Assembly (NCBI GenBank): GCA_014730235.1
Contig: WJIO01000049.1
Coordinates: 1-41,642, forward strand
Direction: 5' to 3'
Origin: Candidatus Poribacteria bacterium
GTDB taxonomy: Bacteria > Poribacteria > DTPJ01 > WJIO01
Length of the DNA: 41,642 nt
This document shows positions 22,654-41,635 of this stretch, piece by piece. The notes under the pieces are model-generated. The model was not told the DNA's origin and made no database searches. It worked only from the letters and a program-made list of their open reading frames with translations. Each line of letters begins with the position of its first letter. Position 1 is the first letter of the stretch. Position numbers and translations under genes: made by a program.

Positions 22654-22663
22654 GAGAAGAAAA

Positions 22664-22825
22664 TTGCTTAAATGGATTAAATGGATAGCAGAGAGAAGAT
22701 ATATTATAACATTCATTTTAGAGATTATCGAATGTCTGGAAGATGAAGAAATATCCAGGGAAGAGCTTGACAGACTACTTATGAAAGCCCGGAATTTGCT
22801 GATAGCCCTTAGAGTAGTTATATAG
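22664..22825 (+). CDS. Small helical phage protein
   Basis: 53 residues starting at TTG 22664, chosen because AGGAGA lies 6 bases upstream and directly overlaps the stop of the lysin gene. The sequence (KWIKWIAERRYIITFILEII, then ECLEDEEISREELDRLLMKA) predicts one amphipathic basic helix followed by an acidic helix. No family recognised. Being next to the lysin, a regulator or partner of lysis is possible, but this is a guess from position. Confidence 0.5.
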   Translation: MLKWIKWIAERRYIITFILEIIECLEDEEISREELDRLLMKARNLLIALRVVI

Positions 22826-22840
22826 ACTGGAAAATAAAAA

Positions 22841-24331: not shown

Positions 24332-24348
24332 ATTATGGAGGAATAGAA

Positions 24349-25173: not shown

Positions 25174-25225
25174 TGGTTCTGAAAATGATATATTTTAAGA
25201 AGATATGGAATAATGGAATAAGGTG

Positions 25226-25516
25226 ATGGTGGTGGCAGATCAAGACATAGTTAGATTTCTCTCGAATAGAATAGACTGTCTGGAAACACGCTTTGAAACG
25301 AGATTTGACAGGCTTGAAAGACGTTTAGACCATTGGATGGGCAAGAATGGTCAGCAAAATGTAAGTATACAAAAGAACTCGGATCAGATTGATGCAATTA
25401 ATAAAATGATAGATCATAAAAGCAAGAAATCTCTAACTATAAGCGTTGCAGTTGCTAGTTGTATAGCAACGTTATTAAGTGCATTAATTCAGTTACTTAC
25501 TAAATGTATATTTTGA
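25226..25516 (+). CDS. XhlA-like holin, coiled coil plus one membrane helix
   Basis: 96 residues. An N-terminal coiled coil (RFLSNRIDCLETRFETRFDR, about 10-38) leads through a polar linker (SDQIDAINKMIDHKSKK) to one membrane helix (about 70-93, ISVAVASCIATLLSALIQLL). That architecture matches the hemolysin XhlA family, which acts with a holin or as one to let the lysin out. Starts are ambiguous: GTG 25223, ATG 25226, or GTG 25229/25232, all close behind AAGG. It is the last gene of the rightward operon. Confidence 0.65.
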   Translation: MVVADQDIVRFLSNRIDCLETRFETRFDRLERRLDHWMGKNGQQNVSIQKNSDQIDAINKMIDHKSKKSLTISVAVASCIATLLSALIQLLTKCIF

Positions 25517-25537: not shown

Positions 25538-25610
25538 GTTGGCGAATTCATTTCCAAAAAATTATACATGGAATCGCCAACATATAATTTTTATTTTGAT
25601 TTTTTAATTA
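25538..25610 (+). terminator. Intrinsic terminator closing the phage operon
   Basis: GTTGGCG (25538-25544) pairs with CGCCAAC (25575-25581) and ATTC (25546-25549) with GAAT (25571-25574), around one bulged A. A T-rich run (ATTTTTATTTTGATTTTTT) follows on the plus strand. The opposite gene's stop lies in the T-run, so the hairpin may also slow transcription from that side. Confidence 0.65.
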
Positions 25611-27183
25611 CCAGAATACACGGATTTGATTTATCAGACAATGGATTTTCAATTAATGTTGACCACCCTTTTGGTTTAATATACATATCATGTTTTTCAC
25701 CAGTATATATATCCATCCAAATGGTTTTAACTTTTTTATCTTCTGTTAGCAACTGGCCGCGCTCTCCTTTTTTATTTAAAATATCGGTAAGATCAATTAC
25801 TGCATTTCCACCTTCATTAAGAAAGACCATATATTCTTTACCAAGATTAGCTAAACAATACCCCTCTTCTACCAATATATTCATTGATTCCATTTGATTA
25901 AAGGAAATACTATCCAGGATATCCCTGAGATATTTATATCTTATCCAGCTCTCAGGTTCTGGTTCAAATTTTATTAAATCCCACGAGGTGTTTGAATAAT
26001 AGTAACCAGGATAAGCTCCGGCCATATAAATTGCGTATGTCCACTTGAGAACATCCTGCCATGAGGCTGTTGTTCTGCTCTTGTATGTTTTAAGATCTTC
26101 CACCCCTAACTCATAACCATATTCAATATTAATATATGGCTTTGGAAATAACCTGAGTTTTTTTAAAGCTTCTCTATTATATCGTTCTACATCTTTCAGG
26201 TGAACCTGATCAGAACAGAAATCAACTATTTCATCTATTTCTGAATATCTTCCTTGGCTTCCAGCTTCTGGATCATGAACTGTAACCAGATGTTTATAGG
26301 CATCGATTTTTCTTATTAAATCAATACGGCTGATTGTATATTCATGACTTTCTGTTGAGCGAAACAGATTGTAACTTTCTTTGCCCACATCCCAAACAAT
26401 ATTCCTAAAAGCCTGGTATCTTGCCACAACGTATTTCCAATATATATCATCTTCTACAGATAGACGTTCTGGCCATTTAACATGCTTGTTTTGTACCTGT
26501 ATCATAATATGGGCTACGATACCATTTTGCTGTAGAATATTCATCAGCTTATCGTAGTCTTTAAAGAAATCTATATTTAATTTTGCGTGGTTTGGATTTT
26601 CATTGTTTCCACCAAAAACATACATATCCGGAGGGCCATATACAGTATCAGGAATTGTTTTACCTTCAAAGCGCGATTCCGGTTGAGAGAATCCAGTATG
26701 TGCATAGATATTCATTATAACATAATTGAATCCCCTGTCTTTTATAAGCTTAATTTGCTTGTGACAAAGAGCAGGATTTCTCTGGTGATAGCTAAAAAGC
26801 CAATCACATTCAAAGCCCATTATTACAAATGGGGTATTATCTTCGCACAAGAATTTTTGGGTATTTTGGGGGTCTATAATTAATTTTCCATGTATGTTAT
26901 GGTTTTCATTATCAATACATTCAATTTCCTCTAGTTTAATTCCCGACAGAGAAGGTTCTTTAGATTTTGTCCAACCTTTCCATCGACCTTTTTTATCAGG
27001 GCTAAATCGGACTATCCAATCTCCATTATCATTATAAAAAGCAGGGATTCCCTCAATTCTTTCTCCTGAATCATGTTCCATAACTGCACAAACTTCCACT
27101 AAAAATGGATTGTCAAATTCTGAATCAGTATGAATGATAAAATCATAAATGCCATATAAAGTAACAGTTGCTAATAAAGCCAT
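25591..27183 (-). CDS. DUF5060/DUF4038 glycoside-hydrolase-like protein
   Basis: 530 residues. About 5-75 is a DUF5060-type beta domain (NPFLVEVCAVMEH, DWIVRFSPDKKGRWKGW). About 100-430 is a TIM-barrel apiosidase-like DUF4038 domain (TPFVIMGFECDWLF, RGFNYVIMNIYAHT, NIVWDVGKESYN with a candidate catalytic E, PYINIEYGYE with another). About 445-530 is a C-terminal beta domain. Members act on plant or algal polysaccharides; the substrate here is unknown. No signal peptide, so the protein would be cytoplasmic. AAGGAAA precedes the ATG. It is 28 bases after the stop of the next MtaA-like gene and probably in one operon with it. Confidence 0.8.
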   Translation of the reverse strand: MALLATVTLYGIYDFIIHTDSEFDNPFLVEVCAVMEHDSGERIEGIPAFYNDNGDWIVRFSPDKKGRWKGWTKSKEPSLSGIKLEEIECIDNENHNIHGKLIIDPQNTQKFLCEDNTPFVIMGFECDWLFSYHQRNPALCHKQIKLIKDRGFNYVIMNIYAHTGFSQPESRFEGKTIPDTVYGPPDMYVFGGNNENPNHAKLNIDFFKDYDKLMNILQQNGIVAHIMIQVQNKHVKWPERLSVEDDIYWKYVVARYQAFRNIVWDVGKESYNLFRSTESHEYTISRIDLIRKIDAYKHLVTVHDPEAGSQGRYSEIDEIVDFCSDQVHLKDVERYNREALKKLRLFPKPYINIEYGYELGVEDLKTYKSRTTASWQDVLKWTYAIYMAGAYPGYYYSNTSWDLIKFEPEPESWIRYKYLRDILDSISFNQMESMNILVEEGYCLANLGKEYMVFLNEGGNAVIDLTDILNKKGERGQLLTEDKKVKTIWMDIYTGEKHDMYIKPKGWSTLIENPLSDKSNPCILVIKKSK

Positions 27184-27211
27184 TTTTATTTTCCTTTCCG
27201 ATAAATTCTAT

Positions 27212-28270
27212 TCAATATTTACCATATTCAGCCACTAATTCCATAACCCGACAATATTGTTGGAAACTGACATTATCGGGAACAGAGTGATCCGAATGGT
27301 ATATATATCCACCGCCTTTTTTCATAAATGGTAATTTTGTCGATATTTCTTTCATTATATCATCGGAATTTGGAGATGACATATTGCGCACATCAATTCC
27401 GCCCATGAAGGCTATATAATTACCATAATCTTTTTTTAGTTTTAGCATATCGTTACCGGCTTTTACTTCAAGGGGTTGGATGCAGTCAAAACCAGCCTCT
27501 ATTATCAAAGGTATAAGTTCCATTGTATATCCACAGCTATGAAGAATCATGGGTATCCCACGACTTTTAAATGGTTCGCATATTAGCATGTGGGCAGGCA
27601 TAAGCAACTCTTTGTAGGTTTCTGGCGGAAAAAAAGAGTGGTCTCTAAAACCAAGATCGTCAAATATCCATCCGGCATCAAACTTCATTCCCCTGCCCAT
27701 CATCTCTTCAGCCATATCTGCACAGAGTTGAGCATCTGTCATAAACATATCTTTTACCCAGTCCGGCTCGGTCATCATATTGATAAGGGTATTTTCAGGA
27801 CCCACCATATCGCAGATTTTTGTAAATCCAGGACCGAAATTGAGAGTGCAGAAATAATCATCTTGATATGCTTTTTTATTCGAATTAATCTGGGATTCCC
27901 AGTTAACCCTACTTTCATTCATTACCATTCTGGGTTTATTTTCTTCCCATGCCTCTTTGGTCTTTATGGTAAAGCCAATAAGTTCCGGTGTTGAAGTCAT
28001 ATGTTTCCAGTTTTTCATCTTAGCGCCATCGGAATTAGTAGCAATGACATATTCATCCGTTTCTTCCAAAACTTGCCTTGGGAGTTGCAAAGAGTTATCC
28101 CCACCAAAACCACGAAATTCATATCCAAAATATTCTGTGGGTGATTTATCTTGTGGTAAACCCTCTTTATGCCAACGCTGTATAGTAGTTCCCCAAGGGC
28201 TGTCGTGTATAGCGATTCTATCTGCTTCTTTTAATTCTAATGCAAGTTTAACTCTTTCTCTGGAATTCAT
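27212..28270 (-). CDS. Uroporphyrinogen decarboxylase-like (MtaA/CmuA-type) protein with HxC site
   Basis: 352 residues, start at ATG 28270 behind GGAG; an ATG 12 bases earlier lacks a good site. Opens MNSRERVKLALELKEADRIA, with NFGPGFTKICDMVG, AGWIFDDLGFRDHSFFPPE and the motif MILHSCGYT, which carries the His and Cys of the MtaA-type zinc site, followed by EAGFDCIQPLEVKAG and FMGGID. MtaA enzymes move methyl groups between corrinoid proteins and thiols; many uncharacterised relatives lie in sugar-catabolic regions of environmental bacteria. The gene lies 28 bases upstream of the DUF4038 gene on the same strand. The related gene at 9268-10422 lacks the zinc motif, so the two are probably not interchangeable. 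Confidence 0.85.
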   Translation of the reverse strand: MNSRERVKLALELKEADRIAIHDSPWGTTIQRWHKEGLPQDKSPTEYFGYEFRGFGGDNSLQLPRQVLEETDEYVIATNSDGAKMKNWKHMTSTPELIGFTIKTKEAWEENKPRMVMNESRVNWESQINSNKKAYQDDYFCTLNFGPGFTKICDMVGPENTLINMMTEPDWVKDMFMTDAQLCADMAEEMMGRGMKFDAGWIFDDLGFRDHSFFPPETYKELLMPAHMLICEPFKSRGIPMILHSCGYTMELIPLIIEAGFDCIQPLEVKAGNDMLKLKKDYGNYIAFMGGIDVRNMSSPNSDDIMKEISTKLPFMKKGGGYIYHSDHSVPDNVSFQQYCRVMELVAEYGKY

Positions 28271-28292
28271 ATAGATCTCCATTTTATATATT

Positions 28293-29372
28293 TTACAGCC
28301 ACCAATTCTCTTTAATTAAACCTCTAGATTTCATTTCTTTATTTAAATATAAAGCTCCTGATAAAGCGATTGCTAGCATAATAATAGGTAATATAACAGC
28401 TATGAGATCACTATTTATAGAGGCTATAAATATACCTGATGTTGCACTTAAAATGTTGACAGAATACAAAATGAAAGCAGATTTTGGCTGAGAAAACCCC
28501 AAATACATTAGTTTATTATGGGTATGTAAATTGTCAGGATGGAACGGGGACAAACGTCTTCTAACTCTACGAATTATAGCCCATGTTGTGTCAAATACCG
28601 GCAAACCAAATATTAATACAGAAACGACTGAACTCGCGTTTATTGGAGAAGGATTCTGAAAAAGAAGAGATATGGAGACTACAGATAATACTAAGCCCAA
28701 GAACATAGCACCGCAATCACCCATAAATATACTGGCAGGATGAAAATTGTATCTAAGAAAGCCTAATACACTGCCGGTAACAGCAATGCAAACTACAGCC
28801 ATATAATAATTGCCAACAAATATTGCTATTAGAAAAAATGAAATAGCAATAATAACAGAAATACCACCGGCAAGTCCATCCATGCCATCAATAAAATTGA
28901 TAGTATTTATAATTCCGGTTATCCAGAAAGCGGTAAAGATAGCTCCACCTAACCACCCTAAATTAACAATATCTAAATATGGCAATTTAAGTTCTCGAAC
29001 TAAAAAGCCAGACGATATAATTATAACAACAGCTACAGTTTGTCCTGAAAATTTTCTCGGTGCATTCATGCTGCGTAAATCATCCCATACACCAAGAAGA
29101 CATATGGTAACAGCACCAATGATTAAGCCGATGAACCTCTGTGTGGGTTCGTTTATTTGGGAATGAAAGATAAAGTAAGATATGGTTATTGATAAAAGAC
29201 AGGCAAAAGCAACACCAATTCCTCCAATAGCAGGTACGGCTTTTTTATGTAGTTTACGCTCGCTAGGTTTATCAAGAAGATTATATCTGATAGATATCCA
29301 ACGGATGATAGGCACAGTAATCAGCGCAAGGATTAGAGAGGTAAAGAATACAATTGAATATATTTTTATCAT
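28293..29372 (-). CDS. WecA/TagO-type polyprenyl-phosphate sugar-1-phosphate transferase
   Basis: 359 residues with about 10-11 membrane helices. It transfers a sugar-1-phosphate from a UDP-sugar to undecaprenyl phosphate, the first step of O-antigen or capsule repeat assembly at the inner membrane. Visible motifs are the Mg-binding WDDLRS (D97, D98), INFIDGMDGLAGG (D162, D165), FMGDCGA (D219) and a cytoplasmic HPDNLHTHNKL near 278-287 that corresponds to the HxxH-type loop. Start ATG 29372 overlaps the stop of the reductase gene by one base (TAATG), so translation is coupled. It is the last gene of the minus-strand cluster, as WbpL-type enzymes often are in FucNAc O-antigen loci. Confidence 0.88.
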   Translation of the reverse strand: MIKIYSIVFFTSLILALITVPIIRWISIRYNLLDKPSERKLHKKAVPAIGGIGVAFACLLSITISYFIFHSQINEPTQRFIGLIIGAVTICLLGVWDDLRSMNAPRKFSGQTVAVVIIISSGFLVRELKLPYLDIVNLGWLGGAIFTAFWITGIINTINFIDGMDGLAGGISVIIAISFFLIAIFVGNYYMAVVCIAVTGSVLGFLRYNFHPASIFMGDCGAMFLGLVLSVVSISLLFQNPSPINASSVVSVLIFGLPVFDTTWAIIRRVRRRLSPFHPDNLHTHNKLMYLGFSQPKSAFILYSVNILSATSGIFIASINSDLIAVILPIIMLAIALSGALYLNKEMKSRGLIKENWWL

Positions 29373-30199
29373 TACTGTGATGGTGCTCTTATATTATCAA
29401 AGAAAAGCTTCATCTCTCTAATTTGATCAACAAGACTTTTACTCACTACTTTAGCACAGAGATCTTTTTCAGAAGCTAAACTTCGATTGCATGATTTAGG
29501 GGTTTCATATTGATTAATATTAACATCAAGTTTATAAACTTCGTTAATCATGCCTAATAATTTATATTTACTTACGACTTCATCTGAGAAAATATGAAAT
29601 ATACCTATTTCGTATAAACCTTTTTCGTATATACTCTCAATAATTTGGGCTAAATATACTGTAGTGACACCGTTCCATAGATGATTTGTATAGCCATTGA
29701 CTGTATTTCCCCTCTCGCTTATTAACCATTCCAGCAATGACCGGAGATTTTTCTTTTCCTGTCCGATTATAGAAGTTCTTAAGACCATACATTCTGCATT
29801 ATCCCCACCAATCTTACTTAACCCATATAAATCATCAGCATCAAAATAGTCGGATTCAGTATACATTCCTCGCTTACCAGAATAAACACAATCTGTAGTT
29901 ATATGAAAGCAGAATTTATCATGTTTTTTGCATAATTTAGCGAGATTTTTTGGAAAAACAGAATTGACTTTTAATACATCCTCAGCAGAGAAATCCTGAA
30001 TTCTTTTATTAATTATACCAGCGCAGTTTATTACTAAATCTATTTCACCAATAATATTATCCAGAAATTCAATGTTTGTTTTGGCAATATCAAAATCAGC
30101 CCGATTTAAGGTTTCAACATTATATTTTCTGGATTTGAAATATTCATGTACGGCATATCCTAACATGCCATTTTCACCAATTACCAATATTTTTTTCAT
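29372..30199 (-). CDS. RmlD-like NAD(P)-dependent sugar nucleotide reductase
   Basis: 275 residues, an extended short-chain dehydrogenase with GENGMLG (8-14), the NCAGI strand, TTDCVYSGKRG and the catalytic Y125/K129 (LYGLSK). It is the family of dTDP-4-dehydrorhamnose reductase and of the WbjC/FnlB/CapF reductase. In the UDP-L-FucNAc pathway the reductase acts on the 4-keto-6-deoxy intermediate; WbjC normally carries an extra C-terminal cupin that is absent here. It stands between the epimerase and WecA-like genes. Whether it is RmlD or a cupin-less WbjC cannot be settled by eye, though no RmlA, RmlB or RmlC genes are present. Confidence 0.8.
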   Translation of the reverse strand: MKKILVIGENGMLGYAVHEYFKSRKYNVETLNRADFDIAKTNIEFLDNIIGEIDLVINCAGIINKRIQDFSAEDVLKVNSVFPKNLAKLCKKHDKFCFHITTDCVYSGKRGMYTESDYFDADDLYGLSKIGGDNAECMVLRTSIIGQEKKNLRSLLEWLISERGNTVNGYTNHLWNGVTTVYLAQIIESIYEKGLYEIGIFHIFSDEVVSKYKLLGMINEVYKLDVNINQYETPKSCNRSLASEKDLCAKVVSKSLVDQIREMKLFFDNIRAPSQ

Positions 30200-30235
30200 A
30201 ACCGAAGAACCTCTATGGATGAATTAAGTTTTGCT

Positions 30236-31324
30236 CTACCTATTTCTATTATATCCAAGTATTATTTTAATTACTTTTGAAGAGACATTTTTTTCAACAT
30301 ACTCAATTGGTGGAGACCAATTATTTTCTTCATCTGTTATAATATTAACTGAATTCACAATAAATTGAGTAGATATTCCTACCAGCATATTGCTTCCGCT
30401 TTCTATGGTTTCAGGTCTTTCCGTTACATCCCTTATTGTTATATTTGGAATACCAAAAATACAACATTCTTCCTGAACTGTACCGCTATCTGTAATTACA
30501 CAACGAGCGTTCTTTTCAAGAGTTATAAAATCTATAAAGCCTAACGGCTCTAAATACATAACTTTATCATCTTTCTGAGATAAACCGAATTTTTGCATTT
30601 TATTTTTGGTTCTGGGATGCAGACTACAGCATACTGGAATCTTATATTTTTCATTCAATTTATTAAGAGCCAAAACAATACTTCTTAAACGATCCTCTAT
30701 ATCAACATTTTCGGCGCGGTGCATTGTTACGAGGAAATATTCTCTGGGTTTCAGATTCATTCTGTTTAAAACATCACATTTTTCAATCTTATCAGAAAAA
30801 CTCTCAATAACTTCCAGTATTGGATTACCTATGATATATATACCTTCGGTATTTATACCTTCGTTTAATAAATTCTCCTTGCTTCTATTCGTATAAGGAA
30901 GATGTATAGTGCTGGAATGATCGATAATCTTTCGATTAACTTCTTCAGGTACTCTGTCATCAAAACATCTATTGCCGGCTTCCATATGGAAAACTGGTAT
31001 TCCCATTCTTTTGGCAATAATGCTTACTAAACCGCTGTTTGTATCCCCTAAAATAAGTATTCTATCAGGCTTCTCTTTTATAATTACCTCTTCCACACTG
31101 GAAAGTATTTTACCAATTTGTTTGCCAAAAGTGTCTTCTTTTACACCAAGATAGTAATCAGGCTGTCTGAGTTCCAGATCATGAAAAAAAATATCGCTTA
31201 ACCTTTCATCATAATTTTGACCTGTGTGAACTAAAATATGATGGCAATACTTATCCAGCTTTTTAATAACTGCACATAAGCGTATAATTTCAGGACGCGT
31301 ACCTAAAACAGTCATAATTTTCAT
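30236..31324 (-). CDS. wbjD: UDP-N-acetylglucosamine 2-epimerase family, WbjD/CapG/FnlC-like
   Basis: 362 residues. MTVLGTRPEIIRL, HTGQNYDERL, ILGDTNSGLVS, FHMEAGNRCFDDRVPEEVNR and ITDSGTVQEECC are the conserved blocks of the nonhydrolysing UDP-GlcNAc 2-epimerase fold; the EAGNRCFD..VPEE block is what I associate with the WbjD/CapG branch, which inverts C2 to give UDP-L-FucNAc. Start ATG 31324, with a GTG three bases earlier that overlaps the upstream stop; GGAG precedes both. Its adjacency to a 4,6-dehydratase and a reductase supports a complete FucNAc pathway. Confidence 0.85.
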   Translation of the reverse strand: MKIMTVLGTRPEIIRLCAVIKKLDKYCHHILVHTGQNYDERLSDIFFHDLELRQPDYYLGVKEDTFGKQIGKILSSVEEVIIKEKPDRILILGDTNSGLVSIIAKRMGIPVFHMEAGNRCFDDRVPEEVNRKIIDHSSTIHLPYTNRSKENLLNEGINTEGIYIIGNPILEVIESFSDKIEKCDVLNRMNLKPREYFLVTMHRAENVDIEDRLRSIVLALNKLNEKYKIPVCCSLHPRTKNKMQKFGLSQKDDKVMYLEPLGFIDFITLEKNARCVITDSGTVQEECCIFGIPNITIRDVTERPETIESGSNMLVGISTQFIVNSVNIITDEENNWSPPIEYVEKNVSSKVIKIILGYNRNR

Positions 31325-31326
31325 CA

Positions 31327-32355
31327 CTAAAACTCCAAATGTCCTTGCTCTTTTAATATATTTTCCAGTTCTTGCTTATTCATAAGTCTATCCGCTGAAG
31401 AATATTCATCTTTTAAGACTGTTTCGGTAATTGGTATCTGGGATATCTCGGGGAGAATAGAACAGATTACATAATAATTATTGCGTCTTATAGTTCTTTT
31501 AGATTCTTCTTCAGAAACTAATATTTCGTGTATTTTCTCGCCGGGTCTTATACCGATAATACTAATTTCTATATCTCTTTTCCCAATCATTATTTCCGCC
31601 AGATCAGTTATTTTAGCAGATGGAACTATGGGTATATATGTTTCGCCAGATTTACCGCTTTTAAAGGCTTCAAAAATCGTATCTACGGCCTGATCTAAGT
31701 TGAGGAAAAAACGAGTCATATCTCTCGTAGTTATAGTGAGCGGACCACCATTCTTTATCTGTTGTTTGAATAATGGTATAACTGAGCCTGTTGAAGCAAT
31801 AACGTTACCATAGCGAACACAGATAAACCTTGTTTTGCTACAACTTAGGTTTGCAGTAAGTATTATTCTTTCCTGAATTGCTTTGCACATTCCGTAAGTA
31901 TTGATTGGTTTACACGCTTTGTCTGTAGATATGGCTAATACTGTTTCTATTTTACCATCTAATTCTATCGTTGCTCTCGATATATTCTGGGCACCAAGAA
32001 TGTTTGTCTTTACTGCTTCGTATGGGAAATATTCACATACTGGAACCTGCTTTAGTGCTGCAGCATGGATAATTATATCAGAATCCCTGGCAGCGCTGAG
32101 AACTGATTCATAATCCCGGACATCGCCAATTCTAAAATCCAATATTTCCTCGAAATTTCGATAGAATATGTCATCGGTTGCGTATTTAATATTTTTCCAG
32201 TCAAGCTTCATCCGGTGATGTTTGGCTTCATCCCTGGAAAATATTATTATCCTTTTGGGTCTTCCCAATACGCCATCCATAATTCTCTTTACCAGAGTTC
32301 TGCCAAGAGAACCAGTACCGCCTGTTATTAGTATATTTTTCTTGTCAAATAACAA
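31327..32355 (-). CDS. wbjB: CapD/FlaA1-type UDP-GlcNAc 4,6-dehydratase, WbjB/FnlA-like
   Basis: 342 residues from TTG 32355, chosen because GGGAGAGG lies just upstream and the length then matches FnlA; the open frame runs 81 bases further into the preceding gene. TGGTGSLGRT (11-20), ALKQVPVCEYFP and STDKACKPINTYGMCKA (Y144, K148) are those of the polysaccharide-biosynthesis SDRs. The enzyme would dehydrate UDP-GlcNAc at C4/C6, with further epimerisation, as the first committed step to UDP-L-FucNAc. The catalytic tyrosine is present where I recall FnlA enzymes having Met, so a PseB-like specificity remains possible. Start codon lies 1 base after the upstream stop. Confidence 0.82.
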   Translation of the reverse strand: MLFDKKNILITGGTGSLGRTLVKRIMDGVLGRPKRIIIFSRDEAKHHRMKLDWKNIKYATDDIFYRNFEEILDFRIGDVRDYESVLSAARDSDIIIHAAALKQVPVCEYFPYEAVKTNILGAQNISRATIELDGKIETVLAISTDKACKPINTYGMCKAIQERIILTANLSCSKTRFICVRYGNVIASTGSVIPLFKQQIKNGGPLTITTRDMTRFFLNLDQAVDTIFEAFKSGKSGETYIPIVPSAKITDLAEIMIGKRDIEISIIGIRPGEKIHEILVSEEESKRTIRRNNYYVICSILPEISQIPITETVLKDEYSSADRLMNKQELENILKEQGHLEF

Positions 32356-32356
32356 T

Positions 32357-33286
32357 TTACCTCTCCCAACACTCTTTAAGCCAGTGAATATATTCCAGTA
32401 AATTTTCATATACATTATCAGAAGGATTAAAACCAAAAGAATCTCTAGCCAGAGAAATATCAGCTTTACTGTGTCTTATTTCACCTTTACGAGGTGGTGA
32501 ATAGATAATCTCTGCGTCTTTATTGATAATGTTCTTCATCATATTTGCGAGGGAATTAATGGTGATTGATTTTCCACTGCCGATATTAAAAACTCCTGAA
32601 AGTTCTTGTTTTTCTGCCGCCATAAGATTTGCTTTTGCAATATCTTTAACGTTGACAAAATCCCTGGTCTGCTCTCCATCATCGTATATTTTTATGGGTT
32701 TATCCTGCAATAATAAAGTGGCAAATATAGGTATTACATTTCCATAGGCATCATAGCGTTGATTTACTCCATATACGTTGAAATATCTAAGACAGACTAT
32801 ATCAATATCATAAATTCGGTTGTAACACATGCAGTGTTTTTCTGCGGCTAATTTACTTACGCCGTAAGGTGAATCGGGATTTTGTGGATGTTTTTCATCA
32901 ATAGGTTGATAATGAGGTTCTCCAAATATGGCAGCAGAAGACGAATACACAATTTTCTTCACTTTATTAATTCTTGAACATTCCAAGACATTAAGAGTTC
33001 CTAAAACGTTTATTTCTGAATCTTCAACAGGATTTTCCAGTGATTTTACGTTACCAATATGAGCTGCCAGGTGGAAAACAAATTCACAACCTTTAATGGC
33101 TGATTCTAGAGATTCCTTATCCCTTATATCACCCTTTATTATTTTTAATCCATTTAATGAATTTAAATTGTTTATATAACCTGTAGAAAAATTATCATAA
33201 ACATATATTTCATAACCTTTGTTATAAAGTAATTTTGTGACATTAGAGCCGATAAATCCGGCTCCACCTGTAACTAGAACTCTCAT
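32357..33286 (-). CDS. UDP-sugar 4-epimerase (GalE/WbpP-like)
   Basis: 309 residues, NAD-dependent extended SDR: VTGGAGFIGS (5-14), FHLAAHIGNV, YSSSAAIFGEP and catalytic Y141/K145 (PYGVSK). It interconverts UDP-glucose/galactose or their N-acetyl forms, supplying a precursor for the repeat unit. SSSAAIFG and the cluster context favour the WbpP/Gne type, but substrate cannot be read directly. The following gene starts one base after its stop, so they are co-translated. Confidence 0.85.
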   Translation of the reverse strand: MRVLVTGGAGFIGSNVTKLLYNKGYEIYVYDNFSTGYINNLNSLNGLKIIKGDIRDKESLESAIKGCEFVFHLAAHIGNVKSLENPVEDSEINVLGTLNVLECSRINKVKKIVYSSSAAIFGEPHYQPIDEKHPQNPDSPYGVSKLAAEKHCMCYNRIYDIDIVCLRYFNVYGVNQRYDAYGNVIPIFATLLLQDKPIKIYDDGEQTRDFVNVKDIAKANLMAAEKQELSGVFNIGSGKSITINSLANMMKNIINKDAEIIYSPPRKGEIRHSKADISLARDSFGFNPSDNVYENLLEYIHWLKECWER

Positions 33287-33312
33287 GTTTTTTCCTTAAA
33301 TTAATTGAATTA

Positions 33313-34539
33313 TCAGAATTCTTTTACTGCTTTGAAGAATGCCTGATCATACTTAGATATACATACATTTCTGGAAAAATGTTTTTCAGCAAAACTTCTG
33401 GCATTTTTACCGAATTTTTCTCTCAAATTTGTTTTTTCATATAAATTAATTATTGCTTTAGCAAGTTCTTCCGGATTGTCAGATTCAACACAATATCCAC
33501 ATTTTGCAGCTTTAATAACCTTTGGCACCTCTCCTGACAGATCAACACTGGCTAATACAGGTCTTCCGCTTGCCATTATACTTTGAAGCTTGCCAGGGAT
33601 TGCTGTTTTCAATTCACCTTTTAAAGTTACAAGACATACATCAGATGCTGCTAAGACCTGTGGATATATATGTTTTGGCTGCATAGGGAGAAATTTGACA
33701 TTTTGCAAATCCATTTCCTGAACCATATTTTCTAGTTTTGGCTTCTCTACACCATCTCCAACGAGAAGGAAAAGTATGTTTTTATATTCTTCAATTATTT
33801 TAGCACTGTGGATTACAGCATCAAGACCCTGGGCATATCCCATCACGCCTGCAAATGAGACAATAAAACTAGTACCTAGATCGTTATTGCGACGAAAATT
33901 ATTCAGCCTCTCTGATGGTTTTATTGTATCTGTATCAACCCAATTGGGTATAATAATTATATTTTCATCTGGAACATTATTTTTTAAAAGGTGTTGTTTA
34001 TTTCCATCTGAATATACGGTGAAATAATCTACTCTTTTATACACCCATTTTTCAAGTAAGCGAGAAATTGCTATTATTACCGGATTTTTTAATATACCAA
34101 TATCAATTAGACACTGTGGATATACGTCCTGCATATTAAAAAAAAAGGGTATTTTCTTTAATCTTTTAAGGAAATAGCCAGAAATTCCTAAAGTTAATGG
34201 AGGGGAATAAATCAAAACAACATCTTGCTTTCTGGATAAAAGTCCACCTATGAAGAAAGAAATAGCTTCAAAAAAATGAGAAAAAGTTCTTACCATTGGT
34301 ATTGTTCTCGGCAGTGGAATAGTAGCCAACCTAATAACATTTACATTATTCATTTTTTCTCTAAGAAATAACTTATGTCTGTATTTTTTATCCACTTCAC
34401 GAATTGCATAACTGGGAAAACCAGTAACCACAGTTACCTGATGTCCTAGATTAACCAGGCTTTCAGCAAGCTCATAAAAGAGGTGAGCTACAGATCTTAT
34501 TTCTGGTGGAAAACCATTCACCAATATTAAAATCTTCAT
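33313..34539 (-). CDS. Glycosyltransferase family 4, WbuB/WcaI-like
   Basis: 408 residues with a GT-B fold: N-terminal MKILILVNGFPPEIRSVAHL, then LIYSPPLTLGISGYFLKR, NMQDVYPQCLIDIGILKNP, the linker IIPNWVDTDTIKPS and the donor site SFAGVMGYAQGLDAVIHSA with IPGKLQSIMASGRPVLA and SGEVPKVI. MQDVYPQ and the overall pattern place it near WbuB, the L-fucosaminyltransferase that accompanies fnlABC in E. coli. It would add an amino-deoxy sugar to the lipid-linked repeat on the cytoplasmic face. The donor is inferred from the neighbouring pathway. Confidence 0.82.
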   Translation of the reverse strand: MKILILVNGFPPEIRSVAHLFYELAESLVNLGHQVTVVTGFPSYAIREVDKKYRHKLFLREKMNNVNVIRLATIPLPRTIPMVRTFSHFFEAISFFIGGLLSRKQDVVLIYSPPLTLGISGYFLKRLKKIPFFFNMQDVYPQCLIDIGILKNPVIIAISRLLEKWVYKRVDYFTVYSDGNKQHLLKNNVPDENIIIIPNWVDTDTIKPSERLNNFRRNNDLGTSFIVSFAGVMGYAQGLDAVIHSAKIIEEYKNILFLLVGDGVEKPKLENMVQEMDLQNVKFLPMQPKHIYPQVLAASDVCLVTLKGELKTAIPGKLQSIMASGRPVLASVDLSGEVPKVIKAAKCGYCVESDNPEELAKAIINLYEKTNLREKFGKNARSFAEKHFSRNVCISKYDQAFFKAVKEF

Positions 34540-34652
34540 TAGACAACCTCTTATAGTTTTTATCCTATTATGGCTAAGTATTCAGTGTGACATATTTTTG
34601 GAGGGGAAATATCTATTAGCGGGAGTGAACTAAATAATTTCAAACATAAAAT

Positions 34653-36830
34653 TTATTCCATAGAAATATTAATATTTTCAGGAAGTCCGCTTTTTGCTGA
34701 TTCTATAATTTTGAAAGTTGTTATAGTTACGGCAATTGCTTCTCGGAAATCTTCCGGAACATGAGTGTTATTTTTTACCGCTGCAACAAATTCAGTCAGT
34801 TCAGTTTTATGACCTTTATCTTGGTGTCCACTAAATTTCTTTCGCTTACCATTAGTAACAATCTCAGCAGAAATAAAGTCATCTATAGCATAAACTGAAC
34901 CACCGCCAAATATTTCTATTCTTTCTTTTGGATATCGTTGATCTCCATTAGACAAATAATTAATAGTTCCTATAGAACCATCAGGAAAAGTAAGAATTGA
35001 AGATATATTATCCATATTTTCCAGAGTTTTACCATTTCGTCTCAACATATCGGTATAAACCTGATTAGGATAGAGTCCTATCATATATTGGATAAAATCA
35101 ACGAAGTGACATACTTCCCCCAGTATTCTACCTCCACCTTCCTCCATATCATGTACCCAACTATCCTTAGAAGTAGGTCCTGCATTAACGCGATAATTAA
35201 TAAACAAAGGGAATTTTCTGTTATGAAAGAATTTTTTAATTCTTCTGGCAAAAGGAGAGAATCTTCTGTTAAAGCCTACCATAATATTACCATTAAAAGA
35301 TTCCCATATGTTCATTACCTCTTCAAGCTGTTCCATAGATATAGCTAAAGGCTTTTCAACAAAAACATATTTACCTTTTTTTATTGCCTCGATAGCTATT
35401 ACCGGATGTAAATTATGTCTTGTAGCAACGAATATAGCATCTAATTCATCATCATTAAGCATTTCTTTATAATCTGATGTTACATAATTACATCCAAATT
35501 TTTTTCCGGCATCGGCAGCAGTTAATCCTGTCGCTGTTGCTATACATTTTATATCAACTGATTTTTGCTTTTTAAGAATAGGTAATAAAATACCTCTAGC
35601 AAAATTACCCGCACCTATTACACCTATATTAACTCGATCAGAAGTAACTTTTTTTGGTGTTTTTACTGAATCAGGTGATCTTATAACTATACTACTATTT
35701 AATTCTTCATTTATCTTGTATTTAAGTAAAATTGCCAGATATTTCTCCTGAGTTTTACCTGTTATTATATCATAAGCTTTTTGGGCTTCCTCAAAATCAA
35801 ATATATGTGTAATTAATTCCTTTGGTTTAACTTTATCTTCTGAAACCAAACGAAGAAATTCTTCCATGTTGCGTTTTTCAGTCCATCTGATATAACCAAT
35901 TGGATAATCTATACCTTTTTTTTCATAGTTTGTATCATGCCTACCTGGGCCATAAGACCTGGATAACCTGAGGTCTAACTCTTTTTTATAATATAAACCA
36001 CGAGGAACATCCATGCCAATTGCACCTACAACTACTATTCTTCCCTTATCTCTTGAGATCTGGCCAGCAAGCTCTATAGGGGAATTGTCAGTTGTAGCAG
36101 CGCTTATAATAACTGAATCAACACCCATTTCTCCGGAAAAATCATTACAAAAGTCAACAGCCTCTTCGGTATTGATAACGTTTTCATTTCCAAGCTGTCG
36201 GGCAATCTCTATTTTTTCTGAATTTATATCAATTCCTATCGTTCTACAACCATTAGCCTGTAGTAACTGAACAGTTATCTGACCAATTAGACCAAGACCT
36301 ATAACAGCGACAATGTCACCTAAATGTGGTTCTGCTCTTCTAATTCCCTGCAATGCTATAGAACCTAATGTTGTAAAGGCTGCATCCTGAAGGCTAACTC
36401 CCTCAGGTAATCTTACACATAGATTTTTGGGTACATATACTAATTCAGCATGATTCGCATAACCTGCCCCGGCACAAGCAACTTTTTCACCAACCTTAAA
36501 GCCGTTTACCTCTTCGCCTACTAATTCTACAACTCCCGATGAACTATAACCCAGCGGTATAGGCATATTCATTTGATCCATAACTCTACGAAAGGTATTT
36601 AAAACACCATCTCGTTTAACCTGTTCTAAAACTTGTTTAACTAAATCAGGTCTTTCCCTTGCCTTATCTAAAATACTTTTCTGTCCTAGGTCTAAAGTCA
36701 TTCGTTCAGTACCAGCACTTATTAAAGAATAACGGTTTCGCACCAATACACCACCGCTCTTTAATACTGGTACCGGAATATCTTCTACTGTTAATTCGCC
36801 GTTCTTTAAATTTTGAGTTAGTTGCTTCAT
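34653..36830 (-). CDS. Bi-domain oxidoreductase: alcohol-dehydrogenase-like plus Gfo/Idh/MocA
   Basis: 725 residues. About 1-375 is a medium-chain dehydrogenase with the nucleotide motif VIGLGLIGQ (177-185); the usual catalytic-zinc GHE segment is not visible. About 398-725 is a Gfo/Idh/MocA domain with VIGAGNFARG (404-413) and the catalytic-lysine motif VEKPLAI (491-497). This two-domain chain is a known protein type found in lipopolysaccharide and capsule clusters, often beside heparinase-like genes; the reaction is not known to me. It is the first gene of the minus-strand polysaccharide operon. It is followed by 113 bases and then the glycosyltransferase. Confidence 0.9.
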   Translation of the reverse strand: MKQLTQNLKNGELTVEDIPVPVLKSGGVLVRNRYSLISAGTERMTLDLGQKSILDKARERPDLVKQVLEQVKRDGVLNTFRRVMDQMNMPIPLGYSSSGVVELVGEEVNGFKVGEKVACAGAGYANHAELVYVPKNLCVRLPEGVSLQDAAFTTLGSIALQGIRRAEPHLGDIVAVIGLGLIGQITVQLLQANGCRTIGIDINSEKIEIARQLGNENVINTEEAVDFCNDFSGEMGVDSVIISAATTDNSPIELAGQISRDKGRIVVVGAIGMDVPRGLYYKKELDLRLSRSYGPGRHDTNYEKKGIDYPIGYIRWTEKRNMEEFLRLVSEDKVKPKELITHIFDFEEAQKAYDIITGKTQEKYLAILLKYKINEELNSSIVIRSPDSVKTPKKVTSDRVNIGVIGAGNFARGILLPILKKQKSVDIKCIATATGLTAADAGKKFGCNYVTSDYKEMLNDDELDAIFVATRHNLHPVIAIEAIKKGKYVFVEKPLAISMEQLEEVMNIWESFNGNIMVGFNRRFSPFARRIKKFFHNRKFPLFINYRVNAGPTSKDSWVHDMEEGGGRILGEVCHFVDFIQYMIGLYPNQVYTDMLRRNGKTLENMDNISSILTFPDGSIGTINYLSNGDQRYPKERIEIFGGGSVYAIDDFISAEIVTNGKRKKFSGHQDKGHKTELTEFVAAVKNNTHVPEDFREAIAVTITTFKIIESAKSGLPENINISME

Positions 36831-37665
36831 CCCACCATTTCCAAATTATATATAAAATTAAAATCTACAATTTAATAATAAATTTAAAGACTTAGCCTTA
36901 TTTTCATATACTATAAACATATCAAAGATATATCAAAAACCCCAACAATGGAACTATTTTTTTGAAATCGTTAAATCATTATTCAGTTTATTTATTATTT
37001 AAAGCTTTTCTTCTAATATATTAATAATCGGGGAAGCAAACAGGTAGAATAATGGTTAGCAAATACAATTCTTTGCGGAGATTATAGATAATAAAGCGGC
37101 ATATCCTTATTACATTTAATTATTAATACCATCATTACTATTCCTGATATAGTCTCGCAGGTTTATGAAATCCAGTTAAACTTTGTTATGAATATATAAA
37201 GCTTTAATTTCTCTGGTTTTTTTTAAAAATGAAAAATTTTAAACTCCTAGGATTCTCTAAATATATGTCAAAATTAACCTATATGAATAATTTTCAATAA
37301 ATACCTTATATTAGGGAATTAACAAGAAATGCCACAAATCCTTTCGTTGGCATAGTATACCTCATTTAAATAAGTATTGTCAACATAAATAAAAAGGCGC
37401 ATCAACAGCTATATTAGCTTTCACTCAAATGCATTTTTGACTCGATATGTATTTATGATATGGCAGAAGAAAAGACCTTTTAAATTTTTATTAATGCGCA
37501 TCTTTCTGTTAAAATGTTATTTTTCCGTAATAGATCAACATTACATAAAAAATAAAGTATAATATTGGAAGATAGTAATTGCTGAAAAATGCTGGTATAA
37601 TCTATATGCTTTTAAATTTATCTTAGAATTATATCAGAATCAATCATCAATATGAGGATAGAGAG
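36831..37665. other. 835-base AT-rich non-coding gap between divergent genes
   Basis: No convincing open frame and no RNA fold that I could name. The start of the minus-strand polysaccharide operon and the plus-strand beta-helix gene flank it. It is rich in A and T with scattered short palindromes such as ATGCGCAT (37494-37501). I saw no JUMPstart or ops sequence. An extended -10 promoter for the plus-strand gene is listed separately. Confidence 0.6.
37593..37601 (+). promoter_or_regulatory. Extended -10 promoter for the beta-helix gene
   Basis: TGGTATAAT (37593-37601) is a perfect TATAAT with the extended TGn motif, 64 bases upstream of the ATG at 37666. No good -35 at the usual distance, consistent with an extended -10 promoter. 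Confidence 0.5.
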
Positions 37666-39756
37666 ATGCGAATTTCAACGTTTATAGCAGCTTTAACATT
37701 AGTTTTTGTTACAATCATTTTAATATCAGGAGAGAATATTATGCCATTTGGTGCTTTAACAGCAGGAGGATTACCAGGACCTCCGGGTGAACCCGGAGAT
37801 TCAGTATATATCGAATATTCCGTTGATGGTACGTCTAATTGGCATACCATGTATGTCGCTGGTGATAAATACATGAGAGTAAGGATCGGTACGGATGGAG
37901 ATTGGTCGCCAGCTATGAAATTTATAGGGGATCAAGGCACTCCAGGATCAGGTAGTCTTACCGAAGAAACGGGTATTTATGTTGCCACTAATTATTCTGA
38001 TATTGCCACTGCTATTGCAGATATGCCAGAAGGAACTACTTTAATTATTCCACCAGGTCTGTATACGGTCAACAGCAAAATTACCGTTAATAAACGCATA
38101 CAGATATTCGGTACCAGTAATTACGGCACAAAGATATTTTGCAATGGAGATTTTACATTATTTGAAGTTACAGTTAATAATGTATACTTCAAAGACCTGG
38201 TAATAGGCTCGGACTCAATAGCAGCCAATACTGCTAACATACATTTCAAAAACACACATTACCATAAAGTAGAGAACGTAACTATGTATGGTGGCTATAT
38301 AGGTATATGGATGGAAGGTTCACTGCAATGTACTATTGAAGATTTTCGTACCGGTTTGTCAGGTCCCTTTGGTTCTACACCGGCTTTTGAATATGGTATA
38401 TATGGTAACAGAGATAATAGTGTCAGTATCAATGGATTATCAATAAAAAACCCACAGATGAACGGTGGAGGAAAATACGGTATATATATTAGTGATTCAG
38501 GAGAAGGCGACGGGCATATTATCGGTGGAGTTATTCAGGGATACTCTCATGGAGGTATTAACCTGACAAACGTAAAACAGGGATTTGAGATCAGATCCGT
38601 TCACTTGGAATCAGGGGTAAGCAAAATAACTCTGTCCGGATGTAATAACGTCAGAATATCAGGTTGTTTTATCGCCTCTAATGGTGGTATTATAGGAACG
38701 GGTTGCAAAGATATAACCGTTGATAACACATATGCGGCAAGCGGTATAATCTTCAATAACACTAATGACTCTGTAAGAATATCGAATTGTTCTACTAATA
38801 CCAAACCTATTGAAGTCGAAGCAACCAACAGCGAGATTTCCAACATCATAGATTACGGCAATTCAGAGTTTCATTGTTACGACACACAGGGCTTTCATCC
38901 AAATAAATCCTATCGGAACATGGTTGACGGTATGATGGAATCGTGGATAAATGGCATACCCTTAGGTTTTTCTGCATATCCATCCAGCGTATGTTTATCC
39001 AAATCTACCAATGCCAAATTCGGTAATTATTCATGCAAAGTTGAAAGAATAGCCGGCTATAATACTGTTTCTCTGGTCTATGAGTTGGATTATAACCGCT
39101 TCTGTAATCCTTTTGAAGATGGGCGCAGTAACGGATTGATGCTAACTGTCAGGGTGTGGGTATATGTGCCAGCCGTTAATTCCTATAGTCCACAAATAAC
39201 TTTACACTATCCACCTTATGATGGTTCTATTGCAACCCATTCCAGAACTTTTAGTGAACTTCCCACTGAACAATGGACGCCCATATCCGCTACATTTAGA
39301 ATGAAGAACAATACTACTTCATGCCGGATTCAAATCGGAGCGTGGGCAACGGGAGATATTGGGGATTACTGCCTCTTTGACGGTGTAGAAGTCGTCGAAG
39401 GTACTACATGTACTCCGATATATGACGACAGCAGGGGGGTTGTTGGTGACCTCCGGGTTGGTGGACGGTTTATCACCAGCAACATTATTACGACATCCGG
39501 TACTTCAACACCGTCTGTTGAATACGGTAACATATTGAAAACCAATAATTCCAGTCCTGTTACCATTACCAACTTTACCGACGGCGTTGAAGGGCAGGAG
39601 ATAAAAGTTATATTTGGGGATGGTAATACCAGTGTCAACTTTGGTAACGCTTATTTAAAAGGTAATAGCAGTAACCCTTTTACCGGAACGATAGGTGACC
39701 ATATGACTTGTATACTGGTTGATAATGTCTGGTATTGTGATGTAAGCAATAACTGA
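37666..39756 (+). CDS. Right-handed beta-helix protein resembling a phage tailspike
   Basis: 696 residues. An N-terminal hydrophobic segment (3-22, FIAALTLVFVTIILI) may be a signal peptide or anchor. A short collagen-like run of four G-X-Y triplets (GLPGPPGEPGDS) is followed by a small fibre-type module (YSVDGTSNWHTMYVAGDKYM, WSPAMKFIGDQG). About 105-400 is a parallel beta-helix of the pectate-lyase type (IIPPGLYTVNSKITVNKRIQI, NNVRISGCFI). About 420-590 is a CBM-like jelly roll. The C-terminus (EGQEIKVIFGDGNTSVNFGN, then HMTCILVDNVWYC) matches tailspike ends. A second start at 37741 has a better CAGGAGAG site and would delete the hydrophobic segment. Host adhesin or depolymerase are the alternatives; no catalytic residues can be assigned. 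Confidence 0.75.
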   Translation: MRISTFIAALTLVFVTIILISGENIMPFGALTAGGLPGPPGEPGDSVYIEYSVDGTSNWHTMYVAGDKYMRVRIGTDGDWSPAMKFIGDQGTPGSGSLTEETGIYVATNYSDIATAIADMPEGTTLIIPPGLYTVNSKITVNKRIQIFGTSNYGTKIFCNGDFTLFEVTVNNVYFKDLVIGSDSIAANTANIHFKNTHYHKVENVTMYGGYIGIWMEGSLQCTIEDFRTGLSGPFGSTPAFEYGIYGNRDNSVSINGLSIKNPQMNGGGKYGIYISDSGEGDGHIIGGVIQGYSHGGINLTNVKQGFEIRSVHLESGVSKITLSGCNNVRISGCFIASNGGIIGTGCKDITVDNTYAASGIIFNNTNDSVRISNCSTNTKPIEVEATNSEISNIIDYGNSEFHCYDTQGFHPNKSYRNMVDGMMESWINGIPLGFSAYPSSVCLSKSTNAKFGNYSCKVERIAGYNTVSLVYELDYNRFCNPFEDGRSNGLMLTVRVWVYVPAVNSYSPQITLHYPPYDGSIATHSRTFSELPTEQWTPISATFRMKNNTTSCRIQIGAWATGDIGDYCLFDGVEVVEGTTCTPIYDDSRGVVGDLRVGGRFITSNIITTSGTSTPSVEYGNILKTNNSSPVTITNFTDGVEGQEIKVIFGDGNTSVNFGNAYLKGNSSNPFTGTIGDHMTCILVDNVWYCDVSNN

Positions 39757-39773
39757 TGTTTATAGACGCTTGG

Positions 39774-39806
39774 GGGTATGGATATTAGCGTTAACTGTCC
39801 ATATCC
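39774..39806. terminator. Hairpin between convergent genes
   Basis: GGGTATGGA (39774-39782) pairs with TCCATATCC (39798-39806), nine base pairs with one G-U wobble and a 15-base loop. It covers the end of the minus-strand membrane protein gene and lies 18 bases after the beta-helix stop. No clear U-tract follows, so it is a weak terminator candidate. Confidence 0.4.
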
Positions 39807-41635
39807 TCAATCTTTAACAGTAAAACTCTGGTCTTTATATATCTTCTTAATACCCTCAGAGTTATGAGTTTTACGTCTTCCTGCATCATGACTGATACTC
39901 CTTCAGAATCTTTCAAAGCATGAATTAATCCTGCCATATTTTCCCCACCCGGCAAATGCTTCCAATTCCTGTCATCGTAAAAAATGTAATCAACCTGGAG
40001 ATTATGCAGTATAAATTTTAGCTCTTCTACACTATTAACTGAATTCCAATCAATCAATCCCGATAATTCCGGATCTGCTCTTAGATATGGTAAGTCTAAA
40101 TAGTATGTATGAGCGCTTCCAACAATCACCAGGATTTTCTTATTGTCACGAATATTCCGGTTAATCCATTTATATTGAGGATAGAGCCAGGTCGCCTGAT
40201 GATATTTGTCTATATCTCTATTGATATGGTATTCAAGAAAATCCAGAGAATAAATTATTGCGAATCCTAATCCAGCCAAAATACATAAACCAAGTAAAAT
40301 GTATGAAACCCTCCCTGCAATTGAATTCTTAATCCAGCTCCATTCACAAAAACTCACTACCATAATAGCGACTATAGGGAATATATAAAGGGCAAAACGT
40401 GGGTATAACTTGGGTTGTAATATATACCAGAATACAAGATATACAATGGTAATGGCTCGGTATGGAAATGCTAATGAACGACGAATGAATAGATATAACA
40501 GCCATAATAACCATGTCAAGGGTATTATGTGCCAGTATTTTGCCATGCTAATTATTGATTCGCCAATAGATGTTATGCTAATTTTCCCCTGCATACGGGA
40601 TGTAGCTGAATGTGTTACCTCATACAAGTAATCCTGCTCAACCCTAAATATATCCTGCATAAGAGGCCAGAAAGGATCTCCGGTATAATATGTATTGCGG
40701 ATAAGGAATGGGGAAGCTATAACTAAGGCAATGATAACCAGTGGGATTATTATCATATATTCCTTAAACGAATACTCTTTATCACGCATAGCCCAGTATG
40801 TAACTAGCATGTATATTGGGAAATATAATATTGCCTGATATTTTATACCTAATGCAAAACCTAATGATATATATGACAATACCAGATAAATCTTGTTAGA
40901 GTCTGTTTTATAATTTATGATTAGCAGTATACCCAGCAATACATAGAATATCATGGGAAAATCATTGGTAACTATTGTGGCTTCCTGAAAACATAACGGC
41001 GTGTATACTATAAACAACGCCAATAATGATAAATTTTTAATCTTCTCTGTACTGTATGATATATGTATTGTTATGAATAATACCAAAACAAAGTATATAT
41101 ATACTGCTAACTTGATCCCTGTTCCACCTACCAACATATATACAGGGATGAAGATGTAATGGAAATACTGGGGGAAATTGTAATGATAGTATGGACGAAA
41201 CACAAATCCCGAATGATTAACTGTATCTTTTACCTGCGCTAAATGGTATCTCATGGCATCAGCACTTCTTGGCGGAGTATAAGCGCAGGCCAATTGAAGT
41301 AATAATCCTAATATGAGAAGAAGCAAGAGAATAAGTTTATATCTACCTTTATATAGATCTTTTCGTAAAAACTTAACGTTTTCCCTGCCTGAATAGAGTA
41401 AATATCGCAAACCAAATATTCCCACTAAAGAGATAGCGATAAGTAATAATATCACAGGAATCCATGATACCAGTTTTACACTAACCAAGATAAACATAAT
41501 AATACCAACAAAAACCGATCCAGCTAAAAATCCCACAGGCAAAGCAATTAGTGGATTCAGTTTAAACCTTTTGATAAGAAAACAACCACAAGCAGTAAGA
41601 AAAAACATATATGTAAAAGTCACTAAAAAAGTCAT
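39791..41635 (-). CDS. Multi-pass membrane glycosyltransferase, GT-C/PMT-like; start near window edge
   Basis: 614 residues with about 12 membrane helices and a soluble C-terminal domain (about 490-614, with ILVIVGSAHTYYLDLPYLRA). The first extracytoplasmic loop carries PRSADAMRYHLAQVKDTVNH, the acidic loop-1 position where GT-C enzymes place their catalytic Asp, and HYNFPQYFHYIFIP. GT-C proteins use polyprenyl-linked sugars to glycosylate lipids or proteins in the periplasm. The ATG at 41635 lies 7 bases from the window end with no ribosome site visible, and the frame stays open to 41642, so the true start may lie outside. The substrate is unknown, but the nearby polysaccharide genes suggest surface glycan modification. 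Confidence 0.75.
   Translation of the reverse strand: MTFLVTFTYMFFLTACGCFLIKRFKLNPLIALPVGFLAGSVFVGIIMFILVSVKLVSWIPVILLLIAISLVGIFGLRYLLYSGRENVKFLRKDLYKGRYKLILLLLLILGLLLQLACAYTPPRSADAMRYHLAQVKDTVNHSGFVFRPYYHYNFPQYFHYIFIPVYMLVGGTGIKLAVYIYFVLVLFITIHISYSTEKIKNLSLLALFIVYTPLCFQEATIVTNDFPMIFYVLLGILLIINYKTDSNKIYLVLSYISLGFALGIKYQAILYFPIYMLVTYWAMRDKEYSFKEYMIIIPLVIIALVIASPFLIRNTYYTGDPFWPLMQDIFRVEQDYLYEVTHSATSRMQGKISITSIGESIISMAKYWHIIPLTWLLWLLYLFIRRSLAFPYRAITIVYLVFWYILQPKLYPRFALYIFPIVAIMVVSFCEWSWIKNSIAGRVSYILLGLCILAGLGFAIIYSLDFLEYHINRDIDKYHQATWLYPQYKWINRNIRDNKKILVIVGSAHTYYLDLPYLRADPELSGLIDWNSVNSVEELKFILHNLQVDYIFYDDRNWKHLPGGENMAGLIHALKDSEGVSVMMQEDVKLITLRVLRRYIKTRVLLLKIEDMDS

Follow-up and report, generated by a model that had tools for sequence, protein, structure and literature searches.

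In the EPS cluster of Pantoea stewartii a tailspike-like protein, WceF (6tgf), has been described. Among characterised enzymes of tailspike type, it is the only one we found that a bacterium retains to act on polysaccharide of its own making. WceF is a stewartan hydrolase of 736 aa (PMC7949094), a tailspike-like trimer encoded in an EPS cluster and carrying a Tat export signal, which cuts the EPS of the cell itself and whose mutants have longer EPS. WceF shows that a tailspike kept and exported by its host is biologically possible.

The gene studied here lies in a genome of 5.5 Mb in 451 contigs, assigned to a Candidatus Poribacteria bacterium. The window, which means the whole stretch of DNA that was analysed, is a complete contig (C413, 41,642 bases), and the gene is an ORF of 696 aa at 37666-39756 on the + strand, in one uninterrupted frame. 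Both WceF (PMC7949094) and the protein here have a tailspike-like beta-helix, phage-type parts, surface-polysaccharide genes beside them and an export-type N-terminus. However, the Tat signal, P22-type head domain and neck of WceF have as their counterparts here a Sec-type segment, a T5-type fibre module and another C-terminal domain. In sequence it is not a detectable WceF homologue: phmmer of the whole protein against PDB sequences gave no match at E 1, and that of the helix at E 10 gave only four ribosomal S5 chains (E 0.9-1).

Other described proteins resemble parts of the spike. Its collagen-flanked NWHxxYxAGDKYMR module is that of the central straight fibre of T5-like phages (pb4 of Pectobacterium phage My1, Klebsiella sugarlandviruses), with 45% identity over 71 aa in My1 and around 33-53% in the other copies compared. 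Nevertheless, the T5-like fibres have one to five copies per record among the matches listed, and in My1 and pKMKP103 the module lies within fibres of around 1400-3200 aa, whereas the spike here, at 696 aa, has one copy close to its N-terminus. The protein of KpLz-2_45 (UKS71963.1) shares the end domain, with 41% identity over 85 query residues, behind a body that by inspection is of helix type, but its N-terminus is unrelated, and the fibre module, the CBM-like insert and the hydrophobic extension are found in the spike here. Finally, a protein of a distant bacterium (G384) has the same order of beta-helix, CBM-like part and C-terminal domain among host-type neighbours, although a LamG-like N-terminal part (by inspection) replaces the fibre module. 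The features of the gene are as follows.

37535..37563, + strand: sigma-70-like promoter, TCAACA-17-TATAAT, matching the consensus at 10/12 positions, 5' of both starts
37654..37657, + strand: GAGG, ribosome site serving the 37666 start, duplex -5.6 kcal/mol
37666..37740, + strand: N-terminal extension of 25 aa, with Arg2 and a hydrophobic core of about 17 residues; signal peptide or anchor
37728..37732, + strand: AGGAG, ribosome site serving the internal 37741 start, duplex -7.4 kcal/mol
37741..37800, + strand: N-terminus of the short form (aa 26-45), MPFGALTAGG and then collagen-like LPGPPGEPGD
37801..37929, + strand: phage tail-fibre module YSxDGxSNWHxxYxAGDKYMR..WSPAxxxxG (aa 46-88)
37957..38898, + strand: right-handed parallel beta-helix, pectate-lyase-like (aa 98-411)
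38899..39420, + strand: tentative CBM_4_9-like beta-sandwich (aa 412-585), PF02018 at E 0.0021, below the cut-off
39478..39753, + strand: tailspike C-terminal domain (aa 605-696), phrog_21413 at 1e-7

Regarding the N-terminal module, residues 26-105 matched phrog_38396 (1.4e-12) and phrog_3890 (2.8e-11), and tblastn at E 1 or better found the module in 74 phage records, of which 66 bear Klebsiella phage names; the aligned copies have a common WH...GD.YMR...W....G core with single departures. The collagen-like run proposed from the sequence alone is present as collagen-like triplets, not as a long run but as two short stretches flanking the module, GLPGPPGEPGD and GDQGTPGSG. A profile of the module found 7 genome-contig loci and 18 viral-contig loci. 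All seven genome-contig ORFs matched phage-protein profiles, six with tail families in the top three; in the seventh (L017) a tail family ranks below unnamed phage families. The viral ORFs were assessed via their collection and by eye, with the exception of L036, which had a tail-protein match. Like the form starting at 37741, two of them open with a short N-terminus that leads through collagen-like triplets into the module: L036, and L032, whose ORF is cut at 123 aa. The viral fibre with this module at 7932-9458 of L036 is 508 aa long, and its C-terminus is, as we take it by eye, similar to a variable lectin domain of the DGR type.

At the other end, the phage-type C-terminal module of the sequence-only reading was confirmed by the match to phrog_21413 and by identities of 40-46% over 81-94 aa to the ends of 5 of 15 viral spike/fibre ORFs, the other ten being shorter or weaker. 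Against PF25692 (Phage_depo_C) it reached E 0.012 and 16.5 bits, below the cut-off of 25, which places it outside this Pfam family. The profile of the domain found 15 and 19 viral loci in two overlapping sets and three of 385 other relatives at 1e-5 (G139, G377, G384). By inspection, the first of these is a T7-type tailspike that shares its stretch with an integrase-like ORF; the second belongs to a phage module with head and portal proteins. The third is the 790 aa protein introduced above (L061, 1545-3917, minus strand), 25% identical to the spike over query residues 71-690 (E 1e-11), and its neighbours, by inspection, are one prepilin-like gene and another whose product has a signal-type N-terminus. 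A second fragment of the domain in the G384 genome adjoins a lipoprotein-like gene of solute-binding type (by inspection). Phage relatives, whose absence had been named among the things that would refute the sequence-only reading, thus exist at the level of modules, since both the N-terminal module and the C-terminal domain occur in viral loci.

No orthologue of the spike was found in the 83 other genomes of the phylum (E 0.01), and the single match among 192 other relatives (E 0.001) was set aside as a NosD-like protein by inspection. Peptide-pattern scans, which depend on exact short peptides and so detect nothing but close relatives, found no relative of the whole protein in viral or genome contigs and none of either end alone in viral contigs; a two-row full-length alignment scan of the viral contigs and a search of plasmids at E 0.001 gave none either.

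The central helix was recognised by profiles under their cut-offs. PF12708 matched at E 0.0015, and the NosD profile (TIGR04247) at 9e-12 with 44.2 bits against a curated cut-off of 300; on these scores the NosD match is one of shared helix repeats only. The model of aa 98-426 alone had a pTM of 0.61 and a mean pLDDT of 53.5 (low confidence), with a core of 70-82, and the model of the whole protein had a mean pLDDT of 41. Compared by Foldseek with viral structures, the helix model had a best E of 2.5e-5 and nine matches at E 0.001 or better, mostly of pectate-lyase/tail-spike type where named; against the PDB there were none at E 0.001, and the best was WceF itself (6tgf, 2.9e-3, TM 0.19). The best 50 VIA matches listed had Z of 21.4-24.5 and included PfbA, the Pam1 tailspike, RbmB, AlgE4 and the Sf6 tailspike; WceF is absent among these 50, which is uninformative either way. 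Thus, the beta-helix of the sequence-only reading has the support of Z of 21-24 to beta-helix proteins, whereas its profiles stay below the cut-offs and its model is partial and of low confidence.

The top VIA match was the pneumococcal surface adhesin PfbA (Z 24.5, rmsd 3.4, 309 aligned), which would suit a cell-surface adhesin or lectin with phage-derived parts that binds sugars without cutting them. The CBM-like match, with its best stretch at aa 494-558, would suit it too, though it is below the cut-off. We consider this very unlikely; PfbA is tied with tailspikes and lyases, and the fold alone does not discriminate within such a narrow span of Z among the best 50 matches listed.

The gene had been described as having two possible starts, and indeed 37666 and 37741 are in-frame ATGs, each with a ribosome site. 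The duplex energies, in which spacing is unscored, were computed against an assumed anti-SD tail. Of the 25 window genes scored, 10 have a start that reaches -5.6 kcal/mol and 5 one that reaches -7.4, the 37741 start of the spike being one of these five; of their 264 internal in-frame ATGs, 21 and 4 do so, respectively. The ribosome site of 37666 is ordinary and that of 37741 is better, as had been claimed.

The upstream start would, as claimed, give a signal or anchor segment. Over 15 residues the extension, MRISTFIAALTLVFVTIILISGENI, reaches a Kyte-Doolittle mean of 3.04, and by eye it resembles the N-terminus of the solute-binding protein of the window, MNKISAFVIILALVLSLQNIYADE. We drew 400,000 random extensions of ATG plus 24 codons, matched in dinucleotide composition to the gap 5' of the gene; 49,678 (12.4%) were open and 73 of the open ones (0.15%) were equally hydrophobic, so that the extension is more hydrophobic than 99.85% of them, in a test picked after the segment had been seen. 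There is no twin Arg in the extension, hence no Tat signal, and no clear AxA directly past the hydrophobic core. Cysteine content was dropped as a sign of export (2.16% in the spike, inside the 0-3.2% range of the window proteins).

Neither start is easily explained by chance, because the hydrophobicity of the extension is matched by only 0.15% of open random extensions and the ribosome site of 37741 by only 4 of 264 internal ATGs. One working start with one relic fits, and so do two products. In the latter case an exported form from 37666 would serve the surface and a cytosolic, virion-type form from 37741 a particle; each start beats chance on a different measure and a single promoter-like site lies 5' of both. 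We hold this to be improbable, since the functional particle is as yet only hypothetical and the relic fits equally well.

Another reading is a virion spike, a moron or displaced tail gene translated from 37741, remaining cytosolic and loaded onto particles of the resident or another phage. The best ribosome site is that of 37741, the module and the C-terminal domain are those of virion fibres and spikes, and L032 and L036 share the short N-terminus, the collagen-like stretch and the module. Nevertheless, this reading leaves the hydrophobic extension without a role, and the surroundings of the gene, in which two groups of genes matter, also bear on it.

11635-25516: phage module with TerL, portal, scaffold, SU10-type MCP and M15 peptidase
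28293-36830, - strand: glycan genes of WecA/WbpL, RmlD, WecB and PseB/FnlA type, an epimerase, a GT1 and a dehydrogenase/GFO fusion

The phage module also has a gp17-like protein just below the Pfam cut-off and, by inspection of the translations, a GT9-like gene and a small coiled-coil/TM protein. The GT9-like ORF (17042-18043) lies within the head operon, past the major capsid gene, and has no Pfam, PHROGs or NCBIfam match. Integrase, replication and tape-measure genes were not recognised among the phage-module ORFs scanned. Two genes of the URO-D family (9268-10422 and 27212-28282), mutually dissimilar by blastp at E 0.001, flank the module.

The last ORF of the module ends at 25516, around 12 kb from the spike gene as had been noted, and the family-matched genes in between (25591-36830) are all on the opposite strand. 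This stretch of host-type genes puts the spike outside the tail operon and argues against a virion spike. The spike also has no above-chance similarity to any module protein (blastp within the window gave weak matches to the local tail proteins, best E 0.08).

Furthermore, between TerL and portal the module holds, at 12935-13040, both arms of a dispersed palindrome. Across the genome the arm matches 144 times forward and 145 times in reverse (289, with at most 2 mismatches), and never in a reversed control; there are at most around 145 two-armed genome copies, and in the window only 12981-13029 matches the pattern. As this host repeat sits inside it, the module belongs to this genome, where its residence is probably not recent, which also speaks against a virion spike. 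The proposal that a moron arms particles of the nearby module therefore finds no direct support, since no module protein resembles the spike and a host repeat lies within the module. A GTA or domesticated particle was rejected for lack of vertical spread; the portal was found in 0/83 other genomes of the phylum (1e-6) and the MCP in 1/83 (1e-5, 27% identity), and an MCP scan of the viral contigs found no relative. No convincing att-type direct repeats were found around a larger prophage; the candidate repeats, 10560-10729 and 12935-13040, pair with each other, and one is the dispersed palindrome.

Composition is divided. The spike gene, at a GC of 0.404, lies closer to the phage tail genes (0.349-0.444) than it does to those of the glycan cluster (0.310-0.359), yet values of 0.393 and 0.411 also occur in two host genes of the window. 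Codon use fits the host and phage tables about equally (-1.103 and -1.120), so it is not on the side of the phage genes. The strand of the spike is the one common to the phage late genes. On all of this, we regard a virion spike as unlikely, though as an alternative to be taken seriously.

Sugar genes had been placed next door to the spike, and the cluster at 28293-36830 does adjoin it. The gene is adjacent to and divergent from this surface-sugar cluster, outside its operon, and between it and the glycan genes, which read leftward, are 835 bases of 25% GC without an ORF of at least 90 aa. On its 3' side, 39791 is the end of a convergent gene that matches PMT_2. The glycan genes presumably fit a route of UDP-L-FucNAc type; of the four genes of this route scanned with NCBIfam, WecB alone passes the cut-off. 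No terminator-like sites were found around the spike gene, and the tRNA search found none. Promoter-like sites in 36700-40100 number 21, against 16.8 (sd 4.2) in shuffles, and such a site is weak evidence when taken alone.

An isolated gene without orthologues in the 83 other genomes of the phylum could also be an unused leftover of a second, otherwise lost prophage. However, the 696-codon frame is intact and has ribosome sites and a promoter-like site, and we give this the least credence.

The reading that we favour, tentatively and at somewhat less than an even chance, is that a tailspike-type protein assembled by phages has been kept as an accessory gene of the bacterium, is exported and acts on polysaccharide. 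Translation would start mainly at 37666, and the extension would take the protein across the inner membrane via Sec, being then cleaved or kept as an anchor. The protein would fold outside the cell as a beta-helix trimer, and bind and probably trim the polysaccharide of its own envelope or of close neighbours, with possible effects on the length of the chains, the tightness of the coat or the presence of phage receptors, which it might strip off. The original phage start would survive as a relic in the well-formed ribosome site and ATG at 37741, set in frame behind the export segment.

Several observations point to a host-kept spike of this kind: phage modules at both ends of the protein, an extension far more hydrophobic than chance, a promoter-like site 5' of both starts, viral fold matches that are mostly of pectate-lyase/tail-spike type where named, and genes of WecA/WbpL, RmlD, WecB and PseB/FnlA type next door, along with a GT1, epimerase and oxidoreductase genes. 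The closest full-length relative lies among host-type genes in G384, and WceF is a precedent for an exported tailspike-like trimer acting on the EPS of its own cell (PMC7949094). The captured surface spike of the sequence-only reading is thus the preferred of its two proposals, in view of the hydrophobic start, the stand-alone gene with a promoter-like site and the full-length relative.

Against it, 37741 has the stronger ribosome site, there is no clean signal-peptidase site past the hydrophobic core, and the GC of the extension (0.267) is like that of the gap (0.250) and unlike that of the gene. The relative in G384 is cut at its 5' end on contigs of 3.5-3.9 kb, where a signal peptide is not visible and a neighbouring phage is possible. 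Besides, the glycan cluster is encoded on the other strand and the rest of the phylum lacks the gene, so that a joint function with the cluster is suggested by position only. If the favoured reading is true, this would be a second case, built from unrelated phage modules, so that such capture would have happened independently, and the capture step itself would be visible in the phage start set in frame behind a signal.

Signal-type N-termini were also looked for on other phage spike genes, with a rule of a net positive start followed by a 10-residue hydrophobic run. By this rule 2/21 viral loci with the C-terminal domain score (L052, L070), as does 1/25 loci with the N-terminal module (L018, a tail-tip-type protein). 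The 21 are the 15 of the first set and 6/19 of the second, the other 13 being the same contigs, and several are near-identical. The remaining 19/21 and 24/25 are virion-type relatives without a signal-type start, which is a further point against an exported host spike. The genes concerned, with those of the G377 phage module, are these.

L052, 4814-8756: two adjacent genes, starting MKRWLILFALLFSGTAYAQ and MKRWLLFFAVIASLGA
L070, 4247-11497: three adjacent genes, starting MKRLLLIFMVCLMVPLGLRAQ, MKRLAQACFILMACAFVREPALAQ and MRKLLILSLFLFFTTSLAAQ
L063 (G377 phage module in a genome), 7785-9667: two adjacent genes, starting MRFCKIICALGAVLFDLSFAQ and MKGSRLKAQRMLLAFLAIGLLTAS

The middle start of L070 and both G377 starts are ATGs within longer listed ORFs, chosen by eye. 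Since signal-type N-termini occur on seven spike- or fibre-region genes in all, from three phage records or modules, phages may repeatedly have come to export proteins of spike type; such export looks real but uncommon. Among the titles listed in a narrow literature search, none was about signal peptides on phage spikes, and these N-termini open a wider question to infected-cell proteomics. It is conceivable, though we think it quite unlikely, that spike and fibre export is a recurring phage strategy, in which Sec-type signals on successive genes would allow periplasmic maturation or coating of the infected or lysogenic cell, perhaps with pick-up by particles at lysis or removal of receptors; the gene studied here would then be a stand-alone, dual-start descendant encoding both forms.

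Regarding the records themselves, the first gene of L052 matches tail-spike profiles (phrog_2234), in a record that also has portal and tail-fibre connector matches. In L070 the second gene carries the C-terminal domain and the first and third are without a named tail match; its record holds a head protein of phrog_1328, which is the PHROG of the MCP of the window itself.
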